A stretch of DNA of 64,000 bases from Alphaproteobacteria bacterium (GCA_030041335.1 JASHOB010000137.1:1-64000), one strand, 5' to 3'. Positions 10,157 through 26,709 are shown, counted from the stretch's first letter. Made by a program: numbers and translations. Notes: generated from the letters alone by a model not told the origin.

Positions 10157-12970
10157 ATGAGCGTGCTCGGGCTTCGGGGGCGGATCGTGCGGACGCGCGG
10201 CGCGTCGGTGCTCGCGGACAGAACGATTTTCGGCCGGTCCTACGATGCGTTCATCTCCTACAGTCACAGCCGTGACGCCGCCATCGCCTCAGCGCTGCAG
10301 GCCATCGTTCAGAAGCTCGGCAAGCCCTGGTACCGGTCGCGCGCATTACGCGTGTTTCGCGATGACACCAGCCTGTCAGCAAGCTCCCACCTCTGGGCAT
10401 CGATCGAAGAGGCGCTGACGCAGTCGCGCTATTTGATCCTGCTCGCATCGCCGGAATCTGCCGCATCAGTATGGGTCGAGCGTGAACTGGCCTGGTGGCT
10501 GACGCACAAGAGCGCCAAGACAGTGCTGATCGCGCTGACTGCGGGCGAGCTCGTGTGGGACCCGACGGCGGGCGGGTTTGCGGCGCCGGAGACGACGGCG
10601 CTGCCACCGTCGCTCAAGAAACATCTCGAGGACGAGCCGCGTTGGATCGACCTGCGACCCTTTCGCGATGCGGCTCGCGACCCCCGCTTCATCGAGCTCG
10701 CAGCCAATTTCGCCGCGGCGATCCATGGCATCGCCAAGGAAGATCTCCTGTCGCGCGAACTGTATCAGCGTCGCCGGGCGCTGCGCTTGGCTTGGTCGGC
10801 GGTCGCTTGCCTGGGGCTGCTGCTGGTGACTGCGGCGTGGGAATGGCACGTCGCGGTGAACGAGACGCGCGAGGCGCAGACACAGCGCAACAGCCTGGTG
10901 GCAGCGTTAGCAACGGCCGAGCAATCGAAAGGCGACAGCGATGGCGCGCTGCGCCTCGCCGTGCACGCGACGCGTCTCGAGGCTGCCCTCGATCCGAACG
11001 CGGTCACAACCTCGATCCCCGGTGCCGTGCTCGCCACCGTCGTAGGCCGGACGCAATGGCGCGTGCTGCTCGGCGGGCATGAGAAGATCGTGCGCACGGT
11101 CGCGTTCAGTCCGGACGGGAAACGGCTCGTTACCGCGTCGGAGGATCGCACCGCGCGGGTCTGGGACGACGCTGGAAAGATGCTCGGCATCTTGCGCGGG
11201 CATGACGACGCCGTCGCCTCGGCTTCGTTCAGCCCGGACGGCAGGCGCATCGTCACCGCTTCGGCCGACAAAACGGTGCGCATCTGGGACGCGGCAACGA
11301 TGAGGCCGATCGCCGTGCTCACCGGCCATGACGCGCCGGTGGCGAGCGCCGCCTACAGTCCGGACGGCAGGCGCATTGTCAGCGCCTCGGACGATACCAC
11401 CGCGATCGTGTGGGATGCCGTGACTGCCCGGCAAGTATCAGTCCTGCGCGGCCATACGCTTGGCGTGAGCTCCGCTATATTCAGTCCCGATGGACGGCGG
11501 GTGCTTACCGCCTCTGCGGACGCAACGCTGCGGATGTGGAATGCCGCGACCGGCGTCGCCTTGTCGTCATGGTCACAAGATGGCAATCCGATATTCGCCG
11601 CATCGTTCGATCCCGTCGGCAAGCGCGTCATCGGTGTCATGGGCGACAATTCGCTCCGAGTGTGGGACGCCGAGACCGGAAAGCAGTTGGCGCAGCTCCC
11701 CGGCGACGCAAACGCGATCGGCGCCGCTTCGTTCAGCCCCGATGGCGCCAGCATCCTTGCCGCGCTGTCGGATGGAACCGCACGGGTCTGGGATGCGCAG
11801 CTGACGAAAGAAGAAGCGGTCTATCGTGGCCATGAAGGTCCGCTATCCTGGGTCGCGTTCAGCCCGGACGGCAAACAATTCGCTACCGCCTCAGCGGACA
11901 AGACCGCCCGCGTCTGGCGTACGGGCAAGGCGGGCGGCGGTGTCGTTCTCGCAGGTCATCAAGGCGACGTGCGCTCAGTCGCATTCAGTCCCGATGGCAA
12001 GCGTGTCGCGACGGCGTCGCTCGATCGCACCGCGCGGCTGTGGGACCCGATGACGGGTAAAACGCTGATGACGCTCATCGGGCACGAGGGCGGCGTTGAT
12101 TGGATCGAGTTCAGCCGCGATGGTACGCGTATCGTCACCGCGTCCCTCGACGGCACCGCGCGGATCTGGGATGCCGCGACCGGCCGCACCACAGCGGTAC
12201 TGGGCGGCCATCAGGGCTTTGTCTATTCCGCCGCCTTCAATCCCAGCGGCACGCGCATCGTGACCGCGTCGGCCGACCACACGGCACGCGTCTGGGATGC
12301 CACGCGCGGTGTCGAACTCTTTGCGCTGCGCGGCCATACCAACGCGGTGTTCGCCGCGGCCTTTAGCCCGGACGGGACGCGCGTCGTCACCGGCTCGTCC
12401 GACGTCACGGTACGTATCTGGGATGCGAGAAGCGGGAAGCCGATCGCGACGCTAAACGGCGGCGCGCAGGTCGGCGCCAATTTCATTCAGCGAATCAACT
12501 CTGTCGCCTTTAGTCCCGACGGCGAGAACATCCTCACGACTTCGACCGATTTCACGGCAAGGATCTGGAATGCAGTAACCGGAGTCCAGCGGGCCGTGTT
12601 TAGGCATGACGTCGCCATCAAGAACGCGATCTATAGTCCCGATGGGCGGCGCATCGCCACCATTGCCGGCGACGGTGTGCTGCGTCTATGGGACATCGCG
12701 ACGCAACAAGAGATCGCGGTCCTGCGAAACGGCTTCGAGCTTAACGCCGAGGCGTTCAGCCCAGACGGTGCACTGATTGCTGTTGCCCTGGCGGACCGGA
12801 CCGCGCGGGTGGTGAATGTCCGCTCCGCCACGATGCCCGTCGCCGATTTGCTCACTGAAGCATGCGCGCGGCAACTCGGCCCGCTCGCGACGCTGAGCCG
12901 GAACGAGATGAACCTCGCCGGCTACGCAAGCAACGCCGCGGCGATCAATGTGTGTATGCCTGCCAACTAG
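10157..12970 (+). CDS. TIR - transmembrane - WD40 (14 repeats) protein
   Basis: A 937-residue protein. The TIR domain (residues ~28-170) begins YDAFISYSHSRD and has the BB-loop region FRDDTSL. Trp106-x-x-x-Glu110 sits where NAD-cleaving TIR domains have their catalytic Glu. A single hydrophobic helix at about 211-232 (WSAVACLGLLLVTAAW) anchors it, followed by a short helical linker. From about residue 310 come 14 WD40-like repeats of ~42 residues (GH...FSPDG..ivTAS.D.TaRVWDA), enough for two seven-bladed propellers; repeats 5 and 12-14 are the most diverged. There is no STAND ATPase, unlike many TIR-WD40 proteins. Inferred role: a membrane-anchored sensor or effector, with the propellers as ligand-binding surface and the TIR domain consuming NAD or making a nucleotide signal. 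Catalysis is not proven by sequence. Confidence 0.92.
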   Translation: MSVLGLRGRIVRTRGASVLADRTIFGRSYDAFISYSHSRDAAIASALQAIVQKLGKPWYRSRALRVFRDDTSLSASSHLWASIEEALTQSRYLILLASPESAASVWVERELAWWLTHKSAKTVLIALTAGELVWDPTAGGFAAPETTALPPSLKKHLEDEPRWIDLRPFRDAARDPRFIELAANFAAAIHGIAKEDLLSRELYQRRRALRLAWSAVACLGLLLVTAAWEWHVAVNETREAQTQRNSLVAALATAEQSKGDSDGALRLAVHATRLEAALDPNAVTTSIPGAVLATVVGRTQWRVLLGGHEKIVRTVAFSPDGKRLVTASEDRTARVWDDAGKMLGILRGHDDAVASASFSPDGRRIVTASADKTVRIWDAATMRPIAVLTGHDAPVASAAYSPDGRRIVSASDDTTAIVWDAVTARQVSVLRGHTLGVSSAIFSPDGRRVLTASADATLRMWNAATGVALSSWSQDGNPIFAASFDPVGKRVIGVMGDNSLRVWDAETGKQLAQLPGDANAIGAASFSPDGASILAALSDGTARVWDAQLTKEEAVYRGHEGPLSWVAFSPDGKQFATASADKTARVWRTGKAGGGVVLAGHQGDVRSVAFSPDGKRVATASLDRTARLWDPMTGKTLMTLIGHEGGVDWIEFSRDGTRIVTASLDGTARIWDAATGRTTAVLGGHQGFVYSAAFNPSGTRIVTASADHTARVWDATRGVELFALRGHTNAVFAAAFSPDGTRVVTGSSDVTVRIWDARSGKPIATLNGGAQVGANFIQRINSVAFSPDGENILTTSTDFTARIWNAVTGVQRAVFRHDVAIKNAIYSPDGRRIATIAGDGVLRLWDIATQQEIAVLRNGFELNAEAFSPDGALIAVALADRTARVVNVRSATMPVADLLTEACARQLGPLATLSRNEMNLAGYASNAAAINVCMPAN

Positions 12971-14018: not shown

Positions 14019-15359
14019 CTAAGGGACCACTTCCACTTGCTGGGTCGTCGGGATTTCCTTGGCCACCTTGTTGATGTTTATCAGTTGGGTCAGCAACGCG
14101 AGAACCTGGAGCGTCCGGTCTTCGTCCGTCACCGGATGCACGAAATAGGTGGCATCCAGATAGTCGACACTAAACCGGGCACGGTCGGGTTTCGAGCTCA
14201 GATCGATCAATGAATAATGCAGATGCATTTTCACGATCCGCGCCGCTTCGGGATTCCGCAGCAATGCTCCGAGGTACTGAATGATGCCCTCGACCGAGCG
14301 GATGCCAATCGCCCCGAAATCAGCGGGATTGATCTGACTGCCGGCGCTCATGGGAGCGATTTCGGCGTTGCATACACTCTTCCAGGAATCGCGAATTTGG
14401 GCCTCGAACGATGGCATCAGTTGGCGCGCGTTATGCGGCATGGCGGATTTGCTCGATCGGCCGCCGGGCGAGGGCGCTGGCACCCGTGGTGCCAGCATCG
14501 GAAATTGGATTTTGCGCGATCGGACGTCGTCGTCCAGGCCGACCATCGGCAGCGGCACGTTAGCCCTGCAGAATACGATCTCCGGCTCGGCGTTCACCGA
14601 ATAGAGTTGGGCCTTCTCGTCTTTCGGCAGATAGGCAAGACGAAACTTGGCCGGATCGAGCGAGGCCAAAACCTTCAACTCATCGGACTTCGACGAAAAG
14701 GAAATCTGCGGACCAATTGGCATCAGCCGGGTATAGCGGTTCGCCTTTACCACGTGGTTGTCGGCCTCATTGCCGAAAATTTCGTCGATGTACGTTGCGT
14801 ATTGCTCCAAGAGCCTTGGTTGTGTCGGATCATTGAAGTATGTGCCAGGTCGCTGAGACACGGTGTTGGCCGCTCCCGGTCCGGGCTGACCGCTCGCGAT
14901 GTCGACCGTCTGGATCTGCGAGAACAGCAGGAACATGAGCATTTTCTGCGGAATCTCACGGTCGATGTAGTATTTGACCAAGACAGGATCGATCGGTGTC
15001 AGAATGCCTCTAGTGAAGTCCTGCGTGTCAAGTGGGGCGACGTCGAACGACGGACTGGACGAAGCAGCGATGCCGGACATGCCGGTACCGATGGTGGCGC
15101 GCGTCGTCGAATGGTCGAGCGGGCCGACCGGCCAGGTCGTGCCTAGCGATCCGCCCACCGTCATCTGATAGCGGATATCGGAAAGTGAGCTGAAATTGAG
15201 CGGCGCGTAATCGCGCGCGCGCAGGATATTGGTTACCAAACTGACGCCAGTCATTTCCTCATAGGTCTGCGTGTAGTCGGCCGTGGTCGACTTGACAAAA
15301 GTCGCTAGTGAACAGCCCCCGGCAAGTAGTGCGGCAGCAAGTGCCGTAACGATCTTCAT
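14019..15359 (-). CDS. Lipoprotein of unknown function
   Basis: A 446-residue protein whose N-terminus is a clear lipoprotein signal with lipobox LAGGC and Cys16 as the lipidation site. Residue 17 is Ser, so outer-membrane sorting is plausible. The mature protein is soluble-looking. It has an early conserved-looking segment (MTGVSLVTNILRARDYAPL), a helix-rich middle and a C-terminal ALLTQLININK. I do not recognise the family. It is divergent from the GAF gene at 15556 across about 200 bases, and so borders the protease/ABC/cyclase cluster; whether it belongs to that system is uncertain. Confidence 0.75.
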   Translation of the reverse strand: MKIVTALAAALLAGGCSLATFVKSTTADYTQTYEEMTGVSLVTNILRARDYAPLNFSSLSDIRYQMTVGGSLGTTWPVGPLDHSTTRATIGTGMSGIAASSSPSFDVAPLDTQDFTRGILTPIDPVLVKYYIDREIPQKMLMFLLFSQIQTVDIASGQPGPGAANTVSQRPGTYFNDPTQPRLLEQYATYIDEIFGNEADNHVVKANRYTRLMPIGPQISFSSKSDELKVLASLDPAKFRLAYLPKDEKAQLYSVNAEPEIVFCRANVPLPMVGLDDDVRSRKIQFPMLAPRVPAPSPGGRSSKSAMPHNARQLMPSFEAQIRDSWKSVCNAEIAPMSAGSQINPADFGAIGIRSVEGIIQYLGALLRNPEAARIVKMHLHYSLIDLSSKPDRARFSVDYLDATYFVHPVTDEDRTLQVLALLTQLININKVAKEIPTTQQVEVVP

Positions 15360-15555
15360 TCCCCCACCTTGGGAAGACGTTGCGCCACCAATTTATTTAA
15401 AACGTCGGGCTCGGCGCGGTGTAGTTGGTTAATTTGCGGGCTCGCCCCTCGACTCATCCGCACGCTATGATTAGCCTCGCCGTCTTGTCAGGGGATGTTG
15501 GCAGGATACCTGCCTATAAAACTTGGAAAAACTCGGTCCCGCGCCCGGGGGAAAC

Positions 15556-16248
15556 ATGGTCGGCACGCGGTCGCAACGATTAGTTTTCGGCGTGTCCGGT
15601 GCGGCGCCCGAGGCAGTGGAACTGCGATGGCTGCTGGACACTGGCATTCATTTGATCGGCGCCGACGAGGGCTCCCTGCTCGCCTATGATGAGGCGAAGC
15701 GGGCGCTGCGCTTCGTAATGACCGCGGGAAGCCACCGTTCGGAGCAAAAGTTGATCCGTCAAACAGTCCCCCTCAGTCGCGGACTGACCGGACTCGCTGC
15801 GCAATTGCGGGAAGTGCAGGTAGGGACGCCCAAATACCACAAGATTGAGCAGGTCGGACGGCGCGGCACCACGCCGGTCGAGCCCAGCAACGTGATCGCG
15901 GCACCGATGGTGGCCCGCGGCGTCTTGCTCGGAGTCATGACCGCCGTTCGTTTCTCTCCCCATCCCGTCTTCACAATGGAGGAGGGAAAACTGATTGGCC
16001 GCTTTGCGGCGGTCGCCGGCCTCGTTATCGAACAGCATCGCCGGCTCGAGGCATTGGCGGCCAAGGCAAGGGACCGCCCGGCTGTTGGGGCCGGGGTGAC
16101 GGGGGATCGCCATGAGCAAAGGATTCTGGCGGCAATAGCCGAGGTTCGGAGGCACCGGCCGGAGGCGATGGCCCGATTGGCCCGCACTATCGGTAACTTG
16201 GCCGCATTGATCGTTGGCGACGCGCGGGACGCCGATGCAATCCACTGA
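15556..16248 (+). CDS. GAF-domain protein
   Basis: A 230-residue protein. Residues ~15-170 fit a GAF fold: ELRWLLDTGIHLIGADEGSL, then LRFVMTAGS, the VPLSRGLTGLAAQ signature, VIAAPMVARGVLLGVM, and a closing helix through EEGKLIGRFAAVAGLVIEQH. GAF domains bind small ligands such as cyclic nucleotides, tetrapyrroles or metabolites. The remaining ~60 residues are helical, with no recognisable output domain. ATG 15556 is preferred over an in-frame TTG at 15523 because GGGGGAAA sits just before it. Its 3' end overlaps the start of the protease gene by 14 bases, so the two are translationally coupled. Confidence 0.8.
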   Translation: MVGTRSQRLVFGVSGAAPEAVELRWLLDTGIHLIGADEGSLLAYDEAKRALRFVMTAGSHRSEQKLIRQTVPLSRGLTGLAAQLREVQVGTPKYHKIEQVGRRGTTPVEPSNVIAAPMVARGVLLGVMTAVRFSPHPVFTMEEGKLIGRFAAVAGLVIEQHRRLEALAAKARDRPAVGAGVTGDRHEQRILAAIAEVRRHRPEAMARLARTIGNLAALIVGDARDADAIH

Positions 16249-17086
16249 ACTCCGACGGGCACTTGACACGCACATTGGTCGGCTGGCGCGACGCAAGCTC
16301 GCACCGGTCGACGTCGCGGTGATCGACAGCGGCATCGACGCGTCTCACCCCGATTTGGCGGGCCACGTTCATCAAGCGTTTCGCGTCCAATCGGATACGA
16401 CAGGCACCCGCCTCGTTTCGGCGCGAATGGGCGTCAATCAGGATGCGTTTGGCCACGGCACCGCAGTCGCCAGCATTATTCGCCGCGTTGCGCCAAACGC
16501 GCGGCTCATCGATGTCCGGATAGTGAGCGCGGACGAGGTCTTTACCAGCGACGCCCTGATTGCCGGCTTGACCGCGACCGTCGAACAAAGGTGGAAGGTC
16601 GCTAATATAAGTCTAGCCGCGTCGCGGGCGGTCGCGCGCCACTTGATGCCGCTGTGTGAACAGGCGCATTTCCAAGGGCAGGTGCTCGTGGCAGCGCAGC
16701 GCAATTTGGCAATCGAGGACGACGGATATCCGGCTGCATTCTCCTCGGTCTTCGGCGTGACCGCGAAAGATATCCGCGCGACTTACGAATATTTCTTTGA
16801 GGACGGCGCGGCGATCGAATGGCAGGCGGCCGGCGAGAAAATCCCGGTCGCGGCTAGCGGGGGCGGCTATACACTGAAGGCAGGAACCAGCTTCGCCGCG
16901 CCCGCGATCGCAGGCATCTGCGCATTGGTGTTGGGAGCCTTTCCCCGTCTGACGCCTTTCGAGATAAGGACCGTGCTAAAGGCCCATGCCCGGGCCGCGA
17001 CGCCGTCGCGACCCCATCGCGGCAGCCGAACGCACGCGCATCGCGGCAAGCTTCATCACTTCGAGATTAGGAGACACGGTTCATGA
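16235..17086 (+). CDS. Subtilisin-like serine protease (S8)
   Basis: A 283-residue protease with the complete subtilase triad in order: Asp in VAVIDSGID, His in FGHGTAVAS, Ser in AGTSFAAPAIAG. There is no signal peptide and no inhibitory propeptide of normal length (only ~28 residues precede the Asp strand), so it is probably cytoplasmic unless exported by the adjacent ABC protein. The usual oxyanion Asn region reads VLVAAQRN, less canonical than AAGN. The C-terminal ~30 residues are Arg/His-rich and beyond the fold. It overlaps the GAF gene (14 bases) and the next small gene (ATGA), so the order GAF-protease-small protein is one unit. It is a candidate maturation protease for the small protein or for a partner. 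Confidence 0.88.
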   Translation: MQSTELRRALDTHIGRLARRKLAPVDVAVIDSGIDASHPDLAGHVHQAFRVQSDTTGTRLVSARMGVNQDAFGHGTAVASIIRRVAPNARLIDVRIVSADEVFTSDALIAGLTATVEQRWKVANISLAASRAVARHLMPLCEQAHFQGQVLVAAQRNLAIEDDGYPAAFSSVFGVTAKDIRATYEYFFEDGAAIEWQAAGEKIPVAASGGGYTLKAGTSFAAPAIAGICALVLGAFPRLTPFEIRTVLKAHARAATPSRPHRGSRTHAHRGKLHHFEIRRHGS

Positions 17087-17319
17087 CGATCGCGCCTACC
17101 AAGACAAAGCTCATTCCCGCATCGCGGGCTAAGAACCTGAAAAAAGCCGATCAAGGCAAGGCCCTGAAAAACTCGCCGCGGGGTGCGGCGGTTGAGGCCC
17201 AGGAAGGGACCTACAAGCTGGTGACATGTCCTTCGGGCGATATGAATTTCATCGAATACGACCCGAACAAGTATCAGTGGTATCAGTGCACCGTGTGCGG
17301 CTGTTCCTTTGAGATGTAG
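17083..17319 (+). CDS. Small Cys-containing protein, coupled to protease and ABC fusion
   Basis: A 78-residue basic protein. Residues 1-40 are Lys/Ala-rich and probably unstructured. The second half carries Cys49 (TCPSGD) and Cys69, Cys72 and Cys74 (QCTVCGC), ending in a hydrophobic tail. The C-x2-C-G knuckle is zinc-ribbon-like, but the first knuckle has only one Cys. The start overlaps the protease stop (ATGA), and a 33-base gap leads to the ABC fusion gene. Two readings are possible: a small zinc-ribbon partner, or a peptide that is cut by the protease and exported by the ABC protein. No double-glycine leader site is visible, which weakens the second. Family not recognised. Confidence 0.7.
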   Translation: MTIAPTKTKLIPASRAKNLKKADQGKALKNSPRGAAVEAQEGTYKLVTCPSGDMNFIEYDPNKYQWYQCTVCGCSFEM

Positions 17320-17352
17320 TCCGAACGCCGTCGGCGCCGTACCGGGGACGGG

Positions 17353-20300
17353 ATGACCCAGCTGCCGGAGGTCGCCCGCACCGCGCTTGGGCGCGTCGGC
17401 ACGACACAACTCTCAGCCTCTTTGCAACCAGAGCGCCCGTGGTTCTGGCGGGTCGCTGGCGCGGGATGGCGCGTGGTGCGCGACCGACCCGTGTTGTTTT
17501 TCGGCGCGAGCATTCTGCTTCTTATCGTCGACCTGATCGGACTCTACAGCGTGCAACTGTTGTCGTCTTTGACGGCATCTCTGTCGGGACAGGGGACGTC
17601 TGCCGCGAATGTGTTCCATATCTGGGTGCCGAAGGGACCCAAGATCGAGAGTTTGCTGTTCCTGGCGCTGGTGGTTTCGATCGTGGGGCTTCGCATCGTC
17701 CAGCGCCGATTGGCGGCCCGGTCCGAAAACCAAACGCTCGCCGGACTTCGACTGGAAGTGCATAACCGGATCTTGAGTTTGAGCCCCGAATACTACAAGC
17801 GGACCACGCCGGAAAACCTCGAAGGCTTGGTGATGGGCGGCGCGCAAAGGGCGAACTTGCTGTTCCGCCAGTTGATCGCAGCGCCAATAACGCACCTTCT
17901 GCCACTCGGTACCGCCGTATGGCTGATCTACCACAACATCAATGTGGTGAAACAACAGAGCGGATTTGTCCTTCTGCTGTTGCTCTTGGTCCTGATCGCC
18001 CTGCCGGTGATCGGCTGGTTACTTTCCAAACGCGTCGATCGCGCGTTCGGTTACGCCGGGGCACGCGCCGCCGAGCTGACCACGGAAACCGCCAATTCGT
18101 TGTCAAAGCCCGAAGAAGTTCAGTTGATGGACGCGCTGCCGCAGCGCGCGCAGGCCTATCGGATACGACTCGACGAGCAGGCCAAGGCGCAAACTAAAGC
18201 GAGCGCCGATCAGGGATCGGCTGATCAAATCAAGAATGCGGTACAGCCAGTGCTGCAGGCTGTGTTCTTGGTCTATGGTGCCTATGCGGCCTTCGGTAAT
18301 CACGATCCCGCGACGGCAGGTGCCATTATTGGCCTCTACCTCTTCATTCCGCGGGCGATCAATCCTTTGCAGTCCGTTATCGACCTCGTGACTGGCATCA
18401 GCGGTGCCCATTCGACGATCGGCGGCCTGCTCGAAATCTTGGAGAGGGCGCCTCCCATTGTGTCCGAGAGCGGCGGTCTCGCACTCGCGCCGACGGACCG
18501 CTCGGTCACATTCTCAGGCGTCTCCCTGCATTATGACGGCGCCGGCGCACCGGTGTTGGACGACGTGTCGCTGCAGATCGTGCCGGGGAAGATCACCTCG
18601 ATCGTCGGCCGTTCTGGCGCAGGAAAATCGACCGTACTCAATCTCATCGCTGGCCTGGCGATGCCGGACCGGGGAACGATCGCCATCGGGGGAAAGAAGC
18701 TTACCGACATCGCGAGCCAGAGCCTGCGCCGGCAAGTCGTCAAGGTGTCGCAGGATCCACTTCTGATCACCGCCTCGGTGCGCGAGAATTTTCGCCTTGC
18801 CAAGGCCGATGCAAGTGACGCCGAAATCGAGGAAGTATGCCGGAGCACCGGGTTCTGGGAAATTCTGATCGGGCATCAGCCGAGCAACCCGCTCGATTAC
18901 GCGGTCGCACAAAAGTCCTCCGAAGGCCTGTCCGGCGGTGAGAGGCGGTTGTTGGCCTTAACACGCGCGCTATTGCTCAAGCCCAGTGTCCTGTTGCTCG
19001 ACGAGCCGACCACCGGTCTGGACCCCGATGCGCGCAAGAGCTTCGGCGAAATACTGGTCAAGGCATTCACCGACACCACGGTTGTCCTGACCGATCACCA
19101 CATGGAGTTCGTGCGGCATCTGGCGGATGCCGTCCATTGCCTCGATCGCGGCAAGGTGACCAGTTCTGGTCCGCCCGAGGTGTTGCTGGGGCGCAGTTCA
19201 TTGTTCGCTCAGTTGATGCAGGACGAACTCAATCCGATGCGCCGGGCGGAGGCGCAATCGCGGCCACGGGTCGAATGGATCGATTTGGTCAAGAAGGCCG
19301 AAAGCGCCGGAGAGTTTCTGGTCGCGTTCGATCTCGCCAATCATGCGATGGCCGAATTTCCCACGGAGATCGAATTACGATATCTCGCGGTGCGAGCGCT
19401 GGCGCGGAGCGGCGCCACCCAGCTTGCCGCGACTTTGTATGAGAAATTCCACCTGGCGCGCGAGCCGGACGACGACCCAATAGCGCTGGGCGCTCGGATA
19501 CTGAAGGACCAGGCATGGCAAGCAAGCGGTGAAGCGCGGCGTATGCTATTGCGCAAAGCCGCGGAAGCATACGCGGCGATATTCCGGCGCAGCACAAACT
19601 ACTACGTGGGCATTAACGCCGCCACGCTGTTCACCTTGGCCGGCGACACAGACCGGGCAGCGCCTTTCATCGAGGAGACAGCGAAGGCTTGCGAGATAGA
19701 TCATCCGACCAAGCCGCTCGACATCTACTACCTCGAAGCGACGCGCGCGGAACTCGCCCTGTTGCGCGGCGACGTAGCCGAAACGCAGGCGGCGCTAACG
19801 CGCGCCGCACCGCCTGACTTTAGGGACTGGGCGGCGCTGGCGACGACCCGGAAGCAATTGCTGGAGATTTGCCGCTTTCGCGGTTTGCCAGCGGACACGA
19901 TCAAACGGCTGAACTTGCCTCGGATCGTCAACTATGTTGGACACATGATCTCGCCGCCGGGGACGGCAGGCCGGTTTCCCGCAGACCAGGAACCAAAGGT
20001 TGCGCGAGCGATCGCGGATTATCTCGCAGAGAATGAAATCAGCGTCGCCTACGGTTCACTGGCCTGCGGCGCTGACATTCTGTTCGCGGAAGCCCTGTTG
20101 GCGCGCAACGGCGAACTTCATGTCGTGCTGCCGTTCGAACTGGAGGAATTCAAGCGCGTCTCCGTGCTCAGGGGCGGCGAAGGATGGGAGAAACGCTTCG
20201 ACGATTGTCTCGCGCGCGCCCGGTCCGTGCGCTATGCGACCGAGGATGCGTATCTCGGCGACGACAGCCTGTTCCCCTATGCCACACGTCTGGCCATGGG

Positions 20301-21042
20301 GCTTGCCATTCTCCGGTCGCAGAATCTCGGTGCGGAGGTCAACCAAGTCGCCGTCTGGGACAGGGCGCCACCGACTGGCCTCGCCGGTACCGCCGTGGAT
20401 GTCGCCTATTGGCGTAGTAAGGGTCGCCGCACGGATGTCATTCCAGTGACACCTTTCCCCGGGTTCGTCGCCGCCGCTGCCGCGTCCGCCGCTCGTGCCG
20501 GTGCAATGCCGCCTCGCCGAACTCACGCGTTGCTGTTCGGTGATTTTCATGGCTACAGCACGCTGCGCGACCGCGACATCGCCGCGTTCCAGCAGACTTT
20601 CATGAAAGCGGTGGCAGAAATTCTCGAGCAATTCGGTGCCGGCGTTCAATACCGCAATACTTGGGGTGACGCGATCTATGTCGTAATGGACGGTGTCGTC
20701 GAAGCCGCGCGGTGCGCCTTGGCGATCCGAGATTGCATCGCCCAGCGTGACCGCGGCGACTTGGCGGTGCGGCCGGAACTGCGGCTCGCTGGCCATTTCG
20801 GTCCCACCTTCGAGGGCTACGACGCCGTCCGGGGCGAGCCGACCTATTTCGGCGCCCAGGTGACGCGCGCGGCCCGCCTCGAACCCGTGACGCCAACCAA
20901 TTTGGTCTATGTCACCGAGCCGTTCGCCGCCGCATTGTTGCTGGAAAACGCAACCCAGTTCTCTTGCGACTATGTTGGGCAGCTCCCGGCGGCAAAGAAC
21001 TACGGTACGATGCCCATGTACATGCTGCGTGCGGCGTCCTGA
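17353..21042 (+). CDS. ABC exporter - TPR-like - SLOG-like - class III cyclase-like fusion
   Basis: A 1,229-residue multidomain protein. Residues ~40-370 are an ABC-exporter membrane domain with about six hydrophobic segments. Residues ~385-620 are the nucleotide-binding domain: Walker A GRSGAGKST (419-427), signature LSGGE (526-530), Walker B with Asp550-Glu551. Residues ~640-850 are helical repeats (TRAFs-binding/TPR-like). Residues ~860-1040 are a Rossmann-like segment with GSLACGAD (901-908) and ELHVVLPFE, resembling SLOG/LOG nucleotide-binding domains. Residues 1055-1229 are a class III nucleotide-cyclase fold with both metal Asp positions (Asp1064, Asp1106) and Arg1175. The purine-selecting Lys and Asp are replaced by Asn1102 and Thr1164, and the transition-state Asn by Thr1171. 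Substrate and even activity are therefore open. I know of no standard family with this exact order. Confidence 0.88.
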   Translation: MTQLPEVARTALGRVGTTQLSASLQPERPWFWRVAGAGWRVVRDRPVLFFGASILLLIVDLIGLYSVQLLSSLTASLSGQGTSAANVFHIWVPKGPKIESLLFLALVVSIVGLRIVQRRLAARSENQTLAGLRLEVHNRILSLSPEYYKRTTPENLEGLVMGGAQRANLLFRQLIAAPITHLLPLGTAVWLIYHNINVVKQQSGFVLLLLLLVLIALPVIGWLLSKRVDRAFGYAGARAAELTTETANSLSKPEEVQLMDALPQRAQAYRIRLDEQAKAQTKASADQGSADQIKNAVQPVLQAVFLVYGAYAAFGNHDPATAGAIIGLYLFIPRAINPLQSVIDLVTGISGAHSTIGGLLEILERAPPIVSESGGLALAPTDRSVTFSGVSLHYDGAGAPVLDDVSLQIVPGKITSIVGRSGAGKSTVLNLIAGLAMPDRGTIAIGGKKLTDIASQSLRRQVVKVSQDPLLITASVRENFRLAKADASDAEIEEVCRSTGFWEILIGHQPSNPLDYAVAQKSSEGLSGGERRLLALTRALLLKPSVLLLDEPTTGLDPDARKSFGEILVKAFTDTTVVLTDHHMEFVRHLADAVHCLDRGKVTSSGPPEVLLGRSSLFAQLMQDELNPMRRAEAQSRPRVEWIDLVKKAESAGEFLVAFDLANHAMAEFPTEIELRYLAVRALARSGATQLAATLYEKFHLAREPDDDPIALGARILKDQAWQASGEARRMLLRKAAEAYAAIFRRSTNYYVGINAATLFTLAGDTDRAAPFIEETAKACEIDHPTKPLDIYYLEATRAELALLRGDVAETQAALTRAAPPDFRDWAALATTRKQLLEICRFRGLPADTIKRLNLPRIVNYVGHMISPPGTAGRFPADQEPKVARAIADYLAENEISVAYGSLACGADILFAEALLARNGELHVVLPFELEEFKRVSVLRGGEGWEKRFDDCLARARSVRYATEDAYLGDDSLFPYATRLAMGLAILRSQNLGAEVNQVAVWDRAPPTGLAGTAVDVAYWRSKGRRTDVIPVTPFPGFVAAAAASAARAGAMPPRRTHALLFGDFHGYSTLRDRDIAAFQQTFMKAVAEILEQFGAGVQYRNTWGDAIYVVMDGVVEAARCALAIRDCIAQRDRGDLAVRPELRLAGHFGPTFEGYDAVRGEPTYFGAQVTRAARLEPVTPTNLVYVTEPFAAALLLENATQFSCDYVGQLPAAKNYGTMPMYMLRAAS

Positions 21043-21583
21043 ACGGTCCAAGGCACGCCCCGTTGTCCGATACCTGAGCTCGGTAAGCCCGACCCCATAA
21101 AGGAACGGGATTCGCCATAAGCATCTTGGGTCGCACGGTCACGAGCGCCTCGTGGCGCCCGTGGTCAAGGCGCGGGGGCGGTGCGCTGAATGTCTCCATA
21201 CGACCACATGCATCGGAACAACCCAAGCGAGCATAACCGAGTGGCTTGCCGGCACTTTGCGAGAAGAATTGACGTGCTACACCACCATTTGCCGGGCCGC
21301 GGGAACGGCCGAGCGCCGGCTCAATAATCGCCATGATTGCGAGAGGCCCCAAAGCTGCTGAACCGACTCCTTAACGCCTTTGAGGATGAACGCCGCCATT
21401 TTTCCATTTATTTTTCTAACGTCATGCACCTTGAGAGATTTTCAGCTGATGGGCTGTGGCTGATCGCTTCCGGAGGGCAAAGTCCATCCAAATGGTGCCT
21501 TGGACGAGAGCGCACTTAAGCCATAGGCTGAGATCAGGATGATGGTTCAGATCAGTATGCCTTAGGGGGTCAGCGAGGGGGCG
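21043..21583. other. Intergenic, nothing recognised
   Basis: About 540 bases between two large signalling genes. No frame has family-like sequence. An AT-richer patch at 21395-21425 could hold a promoter, but no clear -35/-10 pair is seen. Confidence 0.4.
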
Positions 21584-24500
21584 GTGCGGGTCTTCGTCAG
21601 CCACAGTACGGGCGATCACGAAAAGGCTCGGTCGGTTGAGGCGGCGCTCAGGGCGCGCCTGCCGGGCCACGAATGGTTCCTCGCGCCGCGCAATGTCGGC
21701 GGCGGCGCGTGGTGGGTGCCGAAACTGGCTACCGAGATCGCCGACAGCGATGCCGTGCTGTTCCTCGCCGGTCAAAGGATTGGCCCGTGGCAACAGCTCG
21801 AATATTACGAAGCATTGCGCCTGTCCCGGGAGCACGCCGGCCGCCCGAGGCTCATCCCCGTGGTGATCGCCGACCAGGCACCGGGCCTGCCGTTCTTTGC
21901 GCAACTGCATCACATCTTCGCCACCGATCCGACGGAGCGCGAGACCCTCAGCGCGATCGAGCGGGCGCTCGACGACACACTTCCGGCAGACGCAACACCG
22001 GCGTGGCGGCGCTTCCAGCCCTATAAGGGCTTGCCGGCCCTCGAAGAGGCCGATGCCGCCTTCTTCTTCGGCCGCAATGCCGAGACGGCGGCGATCCTAG
22101 ATCGGATGGCGCACCATCCCGACCGCATCGTCACCCTGATCGGCGATTCTGGGGTCGGCAAATCCTCGCTCGCCCGCGCCGGCGTCCTGGCCCGGCTGAA
22201 GTCGCAGCTGTGGCCGATCGAAACCGGCACCTGGCCGGCAGCGCTGGCCGACAGTCGCGCCTTTCTGCCACTGGTCGTTCGCCCGGGCGAGGAACCGCTG
22301 AAGGAATTGGCACGCGAGATCGCCCGGCTTTACACGCCGCGCAGCTACGAGCTTGACGAGGAAGCTGCGGGCTGGGCGCGACGCTTCGCCGACGGATCGG
22401 GGCTCCACGACCTGCTGCGCGCGGCTCGAGACAAGCTCGCTGAAGCGCTGGCCGCGGAGCCGCCGAAGCGGTTCGTCATCTATCTCGACCAGGGCGAGGA
22501 ACTCTACACTCGAGCCAAGCCCGACGAGGCGCGCCGTTTCTCCGAAGTAGTTGCCGAGGCCGCCGGCCACGAGTCGTTCTCGGTATTGCTGAGCCTGCGC
22601 AACGATTACTACTCGGCCTGGCAGAAGGACCGCGCCCTGTTCGGCATCGCCGAGCATGTCGACGTGCTGGCGCCGGCGGCTGGGACATTGGGCGAGATCA
22701 TCTACCGGCCGGCGGAGATGCTGAAGGCGCGTTTTGAGAGCAGCGAGATCGTCGAGCGCGCCGCCGACGCCACCGAGCGCGAGCCCGGCAGCCTGCCGTT
22801 GCTGTCAGACCTGCTACACGAGATGTGGGTCAACATGCAGGCGCGTGGCGATGGTGAGTTGCGCTGGGCCGACGTGCCCGGGATCATCGACGTCGCGGCA
22901 CCCTTGCGCCGCCGCGCCGAGGCATTTCTCGCCGACCCGGCCAATGACGCCGCCGTGGTGCGCCGCCTGTTCACGCTGCGCCTGGCGCAAGTGCCCGAGA
23001 TCGGTGAGCCGGTGCGCCGGCGCGCGCACCGCAGCGAATGCAGCGATGCCGAATGGGCGGCGGCGGAAAAACTCGCCGGCCAGGCGTGGCGCCTGCTAAC
23101 CCTGGCGCAGACTGCCGATGGCACTCCGGTCGTCGAAGTCGCACACGAGCAATTGCTGCGGCGCTGGCCGCGCCTCAAATCCTGGCTCGACGAAGAACGC
23201 GAGTTCCTAGTCTGGAGGGGCCAGCTCGAGCGCGAAGTCGCCCGGCGCGACCCCGAGCTTTTGACAGGGCGGCGGCTGGCCGTGGCACGTGGTTGGTTCG
23301 AGCGCCGCGCGGCCGATCTCGCGCCCGGCGCCCGCCAGTTCGTCTCTGTCTCGCTCGCGGCCGACCAACGGCGCCGACGTTTCGCGTTTTCCGCGGTTTC
23401 CGCGGCTTTAGGCGTGTTTGTGATCCTTTCGGCGTTTGCCGGCTGGAAGTGGTACGACGCCGATGCCCAAAGGAAGGACGTTGAGGCGCAAAGGAAGCTC
23501 GCTGAGGCGCAGACCAAGCAAGCACGGCTCGAGCGCGCGCGCGCCGAGCATAGCCTCGCCCTCGCAACGCAGACCGCCGACGCGCTGATCTTCGACATAG
23601 TGCAGAAAATCCGGAACGCGGCCGGTGTGCCGACGGCCACAATCGAAGGGATTCTCGACAGTACCCGCAAGCTTCAGGAGCAACTGTCTGCCTACGGCGA
23701 AAACTCGCCAGGGCTGCGTCGTAGTCAGGCGGCAGCAGAAATGGAGCGTTCAAACACCTTGCTGGCGGCCGGCGATAGGCGCGGCGCCCTCGCGGCGGCG
23801 CAGCGATCCCGAGCAATCCTGGAAGCCTTGCTGAAATCGGCTCCCGCCAGCACCGACTACCAACGGGAGCTGTCTGTATCCTATGAGAAGGTCGGAGACG
23901 TGCTGGTGGCACAGGGCAATCTGTCCGACGCGCTCAAATCCTACCACGATGCACTGGTGATCAGAGACCGGTTGGCCAAGTCCGACCCCCGCAACGCCGG
24001 CTGGAAAGACGATCTCGCAGTGTCTTATGGGAAGGTCGGGGACGTGCTGGCGACACAGGGCAAGCTGCCCGAGGCGCTGCAATATTATCGGGCAGAACTC
24101 GCGATGGCCGAACCGCTAGCTAGGTCTGACCCCGGCAACGCCGCCGTGCAAGGCCATCTAGCAGTGTCCTATGAGAGGGTCGCAGATGTGCTGGCGGAGC
24201 AGGGCAATTTGCGCGATGCACTCAAATCCTACCGCGACGAACTGGCGATCATAGACCGGCTTGCCAAGTTGGACCCTGGCAACGCCAGCTGGCAGCGCAG
24301 TGTTTCGGTGTCAGAAAACAAGGTCGGAGACGTGCTTGTGGCACAGGGCAATCTGTCCGAGGCGCTAAACTCCTACCGCGATGGGCTGGCGATCATAGAC
24401 CGGCTAACCAAGTCTGACCCTGGCAACGCGAGTTGGCTTAGCGATCTGTCTGTGTCCGATGAGGACGTCGCGGACGTACTGGTGGCGCAGGGCAATCTGC

Positions 24501-25351
24501 CCGAGGCGCTAAAATCCTATCTGGGAGCGCTCTCGATAACCGAACGGCTGGCCAAATCCGACCCCGGCAACGCCGGCTGGCAGCGCAGTCTGTCGGTGTC
24601 CTACAATAAGGTAGGAGATGTGCGGGAGGCGCAGGGCAATCCGTCCGAGGCGCTGAAATCCTATCTGGCAGCGCTCTCGATAATCGAACGGCTGGCCAAG
24701 TCCGACCCCGGCAATGCCGCCTGGCAGCGCGATCTGTCGGTGTCATATGAACTGGTCGGCAATGTACTCGTGGCCCAGGGCAATCTGCCCGAGGCGCTGA
24801 ATTCCTACCGTTACGCGCTGGCGATCAGGGACCGGCTGGCCAAGTCCGATCCCGGCAACGCCGGCTGGCAGCGCGATCTGTCGGTGTCCTATGAGAAGGT
24901 CGGGAATGTGCAGGTGGCGCAGAGCAATCTGCCCGAGGCGTTGAAATCCTACCGCGACGCGCTGGCGATCAGGGACCGGCTGGCCAATGCCGGCCCCGGC
25001 AACGCCGGCTGGCAACGTGATCTTTCGGTGTCCTATGAGAAGGTCGGGAATGTGCTGGTGGCACAAGGCAATCTGCCCGAGGCGCTGAAATCCTACCGGG
25101 CAGACCTCGCGATAGCCCAGCGGCTGGCCAAGTCCGATCCCGGGAACCCCAGCTGGCAGCGTGATTTGGCGGTGTCCTATGCGCAGTACAGCAGCCTATC
25201 TCAAAGATTGGGCAACAAGTTGGAGGCCATGATCATGTTGACCAAAGGTCGGACCATAATGGCCCGCCTCTGTCAAATCTCTCCTGACAACGCCCGATGG
25301 CGACAGGATCTCGCTTGGTTCGACCAACAACTGCAATCACTAGACAAATAG
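21584..25351 (+). CDS. TIR - STAND ATPase - TM - TPR protein
   Basis: A 1,255-residue protein. A TIR-like domain (1-135) begins RVFVSHSTGD and has Trp69-x-x-x-Glu73 at the catalytic position. FQPYKGLPALEEADAAFFFG then introduces an nSTAND1-type NTPase with Walker A GDSGVGKSS (187-195) and a Walker B-like VIYLDQGEEL, followed by a winged-helix-like region to ~580. One TM helix lies at about 598-620, next to a Lys/Ala-rich coiled coil (620-665). From residue ~763 come nine 48-residue TPR-like repeats and a tenth, diverged one. STAND proteins switch between ADP-closed and ATP-open oligomers when the repeat sensor binds a trigger. With TIR as output this is the layout of NLR-like bacterial immune sensors. 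The GTG start has GAGGGG just upstream. Role in defence is inference. Confidence 0.92.
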   Translation: MRVFVSHSTGDHEKARSVEAALRARLPGHEWFLAPRNVGGGAWWVPKLATEIADSDAVLFLAGQRIGPWQQLEYYEALRLSREHAGRPRLIPVVIADQAPGLPFFAQLHHIFATDPTERETLSAIERALDDTLPADATPAWRRFQPYKGLPALEEADAAFFFGRNAETAAILDRMAHHPDRIVTLIGDSGVGKSSLARAGVLARLKSQLWPIETGTWPAALADSRAFLPLVVRPGEEPLKELAREIARLYTPRSYELDEEAAGWARRFADGSGLHDLLRAARDKLAEALAAEPPKRFVIYLDQGEELYTRAKPDEARRFSEVVAEAAGHESFSVLLSLRNDYYSAWQKDRALFGIAEHVDVLAPAAGTLGEIIYRPAEMLKARFESSEIVERAADATEREPGSLPLLSDLLHEMWVNMQARGDGELRWADVPGIIDVAAPLRRRAEAFLADPANDAAVVRRLFTLRLAQVPEIGEPVRRRAHRSECSDAEWAAAEKLAGQAWRLLTLAQTADGTPVVEVAHEQLLRRWPRLKSWLDEEREFLVWRGQLEREVARRDPELLTGRRLAVARGWFERRAADLAPGARQFVSVSLAADQRRRRFAFSAVSAALGVFVILSAFAGWKWYDADAQRKDVEAQRKLAEAQTKQARLERARAEHSLALATQTADALIFDIVQKIRNAAGVPTATIEGILDSTRKLQEQLSAYGENSPGLRRSQAAAEMERSNTLLAAGDRRGALAAAQRSRAILEALLKSAPASTDYQRELSVSYEKVGDVLVAQGNLSDALKSYHDALVIRDRLAKSDPRNAGWKDDLAVSYGKVGDVLATQGKLPEALQYYRAELAMAEPLARSDPGNAAVQGHLAVSYERVADVLAEQGNLRDALKSYRDELAIIDRLAKLDPGNASWQRSVSVSENKVGDVLVAQGNLSEALNSYRDGLAIIDRLTKSDPGNASWLSDLSVSDEDVADVLVAQGNLPEALKSYLGALSITERLAKSDPGNAGWQRSLSVSYNKVGDVREAQGNPSEALKSYLAALSIIERLAKSDPGNAAWQRDLSVSYELVGNVLVAQGNLPEALNSYRYALAIRDRLAKSDPGNAGWQRDLSVSYEKVGNVQVAQSNLPEALKSYRDALAIRDRLANAGPGNAGWQRDLSVSYEKVGNVLVAQGNLPEALKSYRADLAIAQRLAKSDPGNPSWQRDLAVSYAQYSSLSQRLGNKLEAMIMLTKGRTIMARLCQISPDNARWRQDLAWFDQQLQSLDK
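23870..25165 (+). repeat. Nine 144-bp tandem repeats encoding TPR-like units
   Basis: The unit begins CTG/CTC-TC-GTG-TC and encodes the pattern L-S-V-S-Y-x-K-V-G-D-V-L-V-A-Q-G-N-L. Consecutive units start exactly 144 bases apart (23870, 24014 and so on) for nine copies; a diverged tenth runs to the stop. Units 5-9 are the most alike at DNA level, suggesting recent expansion or gene conversion. All keep frame, so copy-number change would lengthen or shorten the sensor without breaking the gene. Confidence 0.9.
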
Positions 25352-25599: not shown

Positions 25600-26709
25600 A
25601 TGACGCAAGGGCGCGACGAGCCAGCGGGTCAACATCGGTTCAATACCGATCTCTTGGTCAATCCCGGTGATCTCGAAACCGCGCGGCAAGCATTTCCGCA
25701 AACGTTTCACGTCCTCGACCACGCTGCGCTGCGAGCGGCCTTTCTGCGCTACGACCGACCGGCCAACGCGGCCAAGAGGCGGGGCCGAATGGCAGGATTG
25801 CTGGCGATCGGCTTCGGTATGATTGCGCTTTTCACCGCCGCGGCCTCTCCGAGCGCCCGTTGGCAAGGCATCCTTGCCGCCGTTTGCGGGCTGATTTCCA
25901 TTACCGTTGGGCTGGGCGGAGTGCTTTACGCGGGTGCCAAGCGGCGCTGGCTTCTAAACCGCATCGCCACCGAACGCTTGCGCCAATACCACTTCCAAGC
26001 CTTTGTGTGCCGGTGGCGTGCGATCGCCGCCTCTTTCGTCAGCGGCGAAGCGGCCGGGGCCTATGCCGACGAGCGGGAAATCGGATTGCATCGCCTGATA
26101 ACGCGCTATCCGGGCCAACTGGATTCGGAGCTCACCGACCTCCTCGAAGACGAAAGCAATGCCCAATGCTGGCTGCACCAGCAGCAGCCGCTGCCTGCTG
26201 ACGATGAAACCATTCCCGACCTCGAAGAACTCTTTGTCGCCTATCGCGAACTGCGGATTAAACATCAGCTCGACTACGCCAATTACAAATTGCGCAGCGA
26301 GCAGAACCCGTTTGCTTGGTCGCTCCGCCTGCAAGAGGTGATTTTTTCCTATACGAGCTTGATTTGTATTTTGGTGATTTTCGCAATTCATCTGTGGATT
26401 GCGGCTTGGCTGTCGTGGGTAGGGCATGCCGAACAGCTTCGGCTGCTCGGGTTCGACATCCATGTCTGGGTAATCTGGATCGCGATTCTGGTCCTCGGGC
26501 TTCGTGCTTTGCAGGAGGGACTCCGGCCCGGGCGTGAGATCGAACGCTACCGCCATTATCGCGCTGGGGTGCGCGCTGTGCGCGACCGCTTCGACCAAGC
26601 GCAATTCACCGCCGAGAAGCTTGAAATCATGCAGGAGATGGAGCGGCTCTCCTTCGACGAATTCCGCAACTTCCTCCGTTCCTGCAACGACGCCCGCTTT
26701 ATCATTTAA
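25600..26709 (+). CDS. Four-TM membrane protein with SLATT-like features
   Basis: A 369-residue protein. A soluble start leads to FHVLDHAALRAAFLRYD, then a TM pair at ~65-110 (LLAIGFGMIALFTAAAS; ILAAVCGLISITVGLGGVL). A basic, aromatic stretch with WLLNRIATERLRQYHF follows. The middle is cytoplasmic (~130-245), a second TM pair lies at ~255-310, and the C-terminal helix is charged. The TM-hairpin followed by R-x-x-x-E-R-L-R-x-x-x-F resembles the SLATT (SMODS- and SLOG-associating 2TM) effector family, which are proposed pore-formers triggered by nucleotide signals. This would fit the SLOG-like and cyclase-like domains upstream. The family call is from pattern only. GGAGGG precedes the ATG, 248 bases after the TIR-STAND gene. 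Confidence 0.75.
   Translation: MTQGRDEPAGQHRFNTDLLVNPGDLETARQAFPQTFHVLDHAALRAAFLRYDRPANAAKRRGRMAGLLAIGFGMIALFTAAASPSARWQGILAAVCGLISITVGLGGVLYAGAKRRWLLNRIATERLRQYHFQAFVCRWRAIAASFVSGEAAGAYADEREIGLHRLITRYPGQLDSELTDLLEDESNAQCWLHQQQPLPADDETIPDLEELFVAYRELRIKHQLDYANYKLRSEQNPFAWSLRLQEVIFSYTSLICILVIFAIHLWIAAWLSWVGHAEQLRLLGFDIHVWVIWIAILVLGLRALQEGLRPGREIERYRHYRAGVRAVRDRFDQAQFTAEKLEIMQEMERLSFDEFRNFLRSCNDARFII

Follow-up and report, generated by a model that had tools for sequence, protein, structure and literature searches.

A proposed natural fusion of a peptide-cassette ABC exporter with a TPR-S, SLOG-like and cyclase-like protein, seen in a single alphaproteobacterial assembly

Gene fusions show which proteins work together, and the question raised by this locus is whether an ABC exporter and a nucleotide-signalling module have been joined in one protein, and to what end. 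In the window (the whole 64,000-nucleotide stretch analyzed here), the open reading frame at 17353..21042 (+) was translated into 1229 codons without an internal stop, confirming that the 1229-residue ORF is real. The original prediction placed ~600 further residues, made up of helical repeats, a SLOG-like segment and a cyclase-like domain, behind the ATPase of an exporter, and Pfam, translation and profile comparisons bore out this order: an ABC half-exporter fills residues 1-628, and TPR-S, SLOG-like and class III cyclase-like parts continue to residue 1229. In the exporter half, ABC_tran matched residues 402-554 (E 1e-31) of an ATPase spanning ~residues 390-625 (18520..19227, +), whose Walker A, signature, Walker B and H-loop motifs are complete as read in translation. 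The membrane domain (~residues 45-320; 17485..18312, +), a six-helix unit in ABC exporters, scored 16 bits against ABC_membrane, below the cut-off of 28; it was placed from this weak match, from four strong hydrophobic segments and from alignment to exporter families over most of its length.

In the C-terminal half, the predicted helical repeats stood and can be named a TPR-S domain, since PF20308 matched residues 661-759 (19333..19629, +; 47 bits versus a cut-off of 27.6; E 4e-12). The cyclase-like domain covers ~residues 1055-1226 (20515..21030, +), with the metal-binding residues Asp1064 and Asp1106: the A1 profile matched 3mr7 (E 2.6e-15) and 3et6 (E 5e-12), and Guanylate_cyc at residues 1098-1225 reached 16 bits, below its cut-off in this protein and above it in several homologues. 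Between the two lies a Rossmannoid region carrying the GSLACGAD motif (residues 849-1026 by the span of the family profile; 19897..20430, +), for which the SLOG assignment came from low-confidence fold matches to DprA, LOG and YpsA and is, by its modelled fold, probable. Pfam and PDB sequence profiles gave no match to this region. A single-sequence model of residues 855-1036 was of low confidence (pLDDT 52, pTM 0.52), and in a Foldseek search with it DprA, LOG, YvdD and YpsA filled almost all of the first 24 places, the best E-value being 0.013, none falling under 0.001 and the ThsA SLOG domain ranking lower. VIA-align scored YpsA at Z 6.2 and LOG at Z 5.2, where values below 8 can reflect a common arrangement only. 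HHalign of the region against LOG and DprA failed, and because the positive control (LOG against DprA) failed too, nothing follows from it for the SLOG region; a model of the whole C-terminal half (single-sequence; pLDDT 45) was set aside. In a small BLAST comparison the region also resembled the N-terminal part of a Caballeronia DUF4231 protein (E 0.001), which is encoded near a homologue of the C-terminal half.

That half is widely distributed. A search with residues 640-1229 recovered proteins of the same domain order (TPR-S-SLOG-cyclase, hereafter TSC), mostly ~560-790 aa long: among 385 genomes sampled from the class, 27 had such a protein (in a few as a partial match), and further ones came from the same taxonomic order and from other classes of the phylum. 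None of ~45 TSC homologues was fused to an exporter, the few that run off contig ends being unjudgeable; there was likewise no further exporter-TSC fusion in family f44. Scanned directly against the genome contigs, the whole fused protein retrieved generic exporters only, and a search of viral contigs and phage records found no relative. One standalone protein, WP_165106814.1 from Caballeronia plasmid NZ_CP049320.1, shares the three domains in the same order and is 30% identical over its whole length; unlike the fused protein, those of its type are free, ~590-620 aa long and without an exporter. TSC genes on Caballeronia plasmids are annotated as encoding a tetratricopeptide repeat-containing protein, and no paper on TPR-S combined with SLOG and cyclase was found in the literature. 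Since the C-terminal module exists widely as a separate protein, the novelty lies in its fusion to an exporter alone. Thus the claim of a new kind of protein holds in a narrower form than first made: it is unusual for a transporter to be joined to a nucleotide-signalling module, and the domain order recurred behind no other exporter among the homologues that could be judged, but the C-terminal half is not new, and what is new is a fusion of known modules. A different partner for the module was observed in L122:4038-7796 (+) (G424), where a VWA-TPR-SLOG-cyclase protein of 1252 aa resembles the fused protein in coupling TPR, SLOG and cyclase domains to a large N-terminal part, but that part is a von Willebrand A domain.

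How, then, did the two halves come together? We tentatively favor a natural fusion between the exporter of a peptide-export cassette and a module that serves nucleotide signalling in conflict-type systems with TIR and STAND proteins. The chief competing account, which we consider rather unlikely, is a one-off fusion or a sequence error, with exporter and TSC functioning as separate proteins and the latter perhaps made from an internal start. The junction bears on both. The similarity to other exporters continues in frame as far as ~residue 622, and by ~residue 640 the sequence clearly matches TSC proteins; residues 620-650, singled out in the original prediction as the place to look for a stop or an assembly join, contain no stop and no frame change. 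At 19219..19239 (+) an AGGA is followed, about a dozen nucleotides on, by an in-frame ATG (Met629), which in the alignment of homologous N-termini is the very place where standalone TSC proteins begin: from Met629 to the end of the conserved GEF/GEL motif there are 27 residues, counting the Met, as there are from the start of the standalone L078 protein. Because the junction coincides with the standalone start, loss of the exporter stop codon between two neighboring genes is probably the simplest history of the fusion. The AGGA may be a leftover Shine-Dalgarno sequence, and internal translation of the TSC part from Met629 is possible. A scan of 15200-21700 found no sigma-70 type promoter and was uninformative.

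Several observations favor the one-off account: i) the junction is seen in a single genome, as the contig of sister G035 breaks inside the exporter at residue 477 and that of sister G033 inside the TSC at residue 764, so that each sister carries one half (75% and 67% identical), both contigs end before the junction and the fusion rests on one assembly; ii) Met629 sits exactly at the standalone start with AGGA upstream; iii) all complete relatives are split. On the other hand, the two homologies share one frame with no break and no remnant between them, the exporter and TSC halves are each under purifying selection in the sister species (pN/pS 0.28 and 0.33), and the cassette around the exporter is syntenic in G035 as far as the contig end.

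If the fusion is natural, its predicted nucleotide output would come from the cyclase domain. The residues pointed to in the original prediction (the two metal Asp and the Arg, which are Asp1064, Asp1106 and Arg1175, together with Asn1102, Thr1164 and Thr1171) were all identified correctly, and we counted the corresponding positions in 42 aligned TSC members, 38 of which have a recognizable cyclase domain. Both metal Asp residues and the Arg were kept in 38 of 38 and the phosphate Lys (Lys1215 here) in 37 of 38. The purine-selecting pair (Lys/Asp for ATP, Glu/Cys for GTP) is absent from the fused protein, which has Asn1102 and Thr1164: across the 38, the position of the ATP-cyclase Lys holds Asn in 27 members and Glu in seven, while that of the Asp holds Asn or Thr in most and Asp in none. 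The transition-state Asn is replaced by Thr1171, a position with Ser or Thr in 26 members and Asn in eight. Since these odd residues are largely family-wide, they are no mark of a dead enzyme in this copy, and a dead cyclase peculiar to the fused protein was rejected; the residue counts point instead to altered nucleotide choice or chemistry in the TSC cyclases as a family. An active enzyme that selects its nucleotide differently is more likely than a dead cyclase. With purine-selecting and transition-state residues lost and the metal site kept, these proteins make up a class III cyclase group whose putative product should be directly measurable.

It is unlikely, in our estimate, that the cyclase-like and SLOG domains are instead binding-only sensors of a nucleotide, for example a TIR product, that gate the exporter. 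SLOG domains such as that of ThsA bind TIR products, and PDB 7uxs, of the ThsA type, was among the fold matches; the transition-state Asn and the purine pair are missing, and some TIR-linked members of the family do without the cyclase, as in L132, L133, L134, L135 and L136, where TPR-S-SLOG proteins with a lost or degraded cyclase lie beside TIR genes. However, the metal Asp residues, the Arg and, in all but one protein, the Lys are invariant in the members that have the domain, for which binding alone is hardly a sufficient reason, and the CRP-type receptors that several lineages encode next to TSC point to a cyclic product.

Among known systems, the pyrimidine cyclase PycC of Pycsar, which works with TIR effectors, is likewise a class III cyclase without the ATP/GTP-selecting pair and with TIR genes nearby (PMC11224242). 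It differs from TSC, which carries TPR-S and SLOG; the PycC profile matched neither the fused protein (P0001) nor the TSC of L082, and cNMP_binding, the domain to be expected in a Pycsar effector beside the cyclase, was not among the matches listed for the neighboring window proteins scanned, TIR ones included (for the WD40 protein, the best 25). Apicomplexan guanylate cyclases are fused to a P4-ATPase-like domain. They share with the fused protein the union of a transporter-type membrane protein and a class III cyclase in one chain; they differ in having a P4-ATPase rather than an ABC transporter, in being eukaryotic and in lacking TPR-S and SLOG.

The exporter half belongs to a cassette that also encodes a candidate substrate. 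Its first gene encodes a GAF protein (15523..16248, +; GAF_2 E 1e-8), followed by a cytoplasmic-type S8 subtilase with its catalytic Asp, His and Ser motifs (16214..17086, +; Peptidase_S8 E 3e-24) and a 78-aa Cys-containing peptide (17083..17319, +) whose ATG overlaps the subtilase stop codon. This peptide, a candidate RiPP-like or zinc-ribbon-like export substrate, is encoded in synteny in G035, 85% identical and under purifying selection (pN/pS 0.15); no peptide similar to it was found in the other cassettes. GAF-S8-exporter sets with an unfused exporter occur in L081, L082, L137 and L138, with GAF proteins 42-44% identical to that of the window, and the resemblance of L234 to L082 adds a further set there; the exporters of the unfused cassettes are ~33-35% identical to the exporter half. 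The arrangement recalls QhpE/QhpF, a cytoplasmic protease and an ABC exporter of a modified peptide in the biogenesis of quinohemoprotein amine dehydrogenase, where the gene of a subtilisin-like protease likewise lies close to that of the ABC exporter handling a small peptide subunit (PMC7876137). The best models for the S8 protease were mycosin and QhpE, both below cut-off (97 bits for the QhpE equivalog, against 165), and the GAF gene and the TSC fusion are features of this cassette not described for qhp.

The cassette and TSC also meet outside the fusion. In five genomes of family f44 a CRP gene directly precedes TSC, and in G084, G306 and G782 CRP and TSC genes follow GAF-S8-exporter within ~8 kb (in G084 with an opposite-strand ORF between exporter and CRP). 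Of the five genomes of one genus, three thus had cassette and CRP-TSC near each other; in G210 and G783 the two do not adjoin, and in G382, which has the cassette, no TSC was detected. In G529, which belongs to another class, the gene immediately upstream of a standalone TSC, and on its strand, encodes an ABC exporter whose C-terminus is a cyclic-nucleotide-binding domain (L139:9717-11948, -), an arrangement to which, as a putative split version of the exporter-TSC coupling, we give moderate weight. ABC genes are abundant (>150 matches in this genome), so a nearby one is by itself weak evidence; accordingly, exporter-TSC proximity was rejected as a statistic because of this density, and the ABC gene before TSC in L079, which encodes an oligopeptide-importer-type ATPase, was not counted.

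TIR genes, on the other hand, accompany TSC without any exporter. Of 30 TSC genomes, 15 had a TIR gene no more than 5 kb from TSC, versus 0.16 expected from the 55 TIR_2 genes across those 30 genomes, which were chosen from ~45 with their neighbors partly known and include related, non-independent species; the TIR-TSC cases come from several families, and the enrichment holds with 45 as denominator. In the window, a TIR-nSTAND1-TPR protein (Pfam) is encoded downstream of the fused gene (21584..25351, +) and a TIR-WD40 protein upstream (10157..12970, +; WD40 repeats, with TIR_2 at 10250-10537); a related TIR-STAND-WD40 protein adjoins TSC in L085. Two more neighbors are a 446-aa lipoprotein-like protein with no Pfam match (14019..15359, -) and a membrane protein with a weak, SLATT-like DUF4231 match (25600..26709, +; E 0.006, below cut-off). 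The lipoprotein-like protein has a Caballeronia homologue (BLAST E 5e-30) whose gene overlaps the TSC start on the plasmid, suggesting a conserved TSC partner. That plasmid unites TSC with TIR, STAND-WD40 and DUF4231 genes and the lipoprotein homologue, and proteins of all these types surround the fused gene in the window, the DUF4231 match being the weak one. We hold it quite unlikely that TSC is here a TIR/STAND conflict-system component for which the exporter is a mere membrane anchor or oligomerization scaffold, exporting no peptide in that role: TIR and STAND-WD40/TPR neighbors occur without an exporter in many lineages, the Caballeronia set among them, and VWA can replace the exporter as fusion partner, but the exporter ATPase motifs are intact and a sister species has kept the cassette, S8 protease and peptide included.

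A natural fusion of export pump and signalling module would work as follows. The exporter of the GAF-S8-peptide-exporter cassette would have been fused to a TSC that is elsewhere free; the S8 protease would mature the 78-aa peptide and the exporter secrete the mature product. Dimers are the working form of half-exporters and of class III cyclases alike, so the fusion would bring two cyclase domains together under the paired ATPases and link nucleotide output to transport. Sensing would fall to TPR-S and SLOG, and the output nucleotide, probably not a product of ordinary ATP-specific chemistry, would signal to the adjacent TIR-STAND proteins. As the fusion joins a pump to a signal protein that is elsewhere separate and often beside TIR, it suggests that pump and signal are one machine. 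A bolder version, which we judge improbable, is an exporter with its own second-messenger enzyme, in which ATP-driven dimerization would switch a non-canonical cyclase on or off and the TIR/STAND proteins would be told of, or would license, peptide secretion through a nucleotide other than ordinary cAMP.

By tying a peptide-export pump to a widespread, uncharacterized sensor-cyclase with TIR neighbors, the fusion proposes a partner, and with it a test, for proteins that occur in ~7% of the genomes sampled from the class; although its modules are known, their new combination offers a useful prediction for an uncharacterized cyclase family. Two minor observations concern the family and its neighbors. 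L141:6798-8630 (-) encodes a SLOG-cyclase protein in which TPR-S found no match and the cyclase is followed by a C-terminal ATPase of histidine-kinase type. Moreover, positions 23870-25181 of the window, inside the TIR-nSTAND1-TPR gene, hold nine 144-bp tandem repeats, consistent with rapid repeat turnover.
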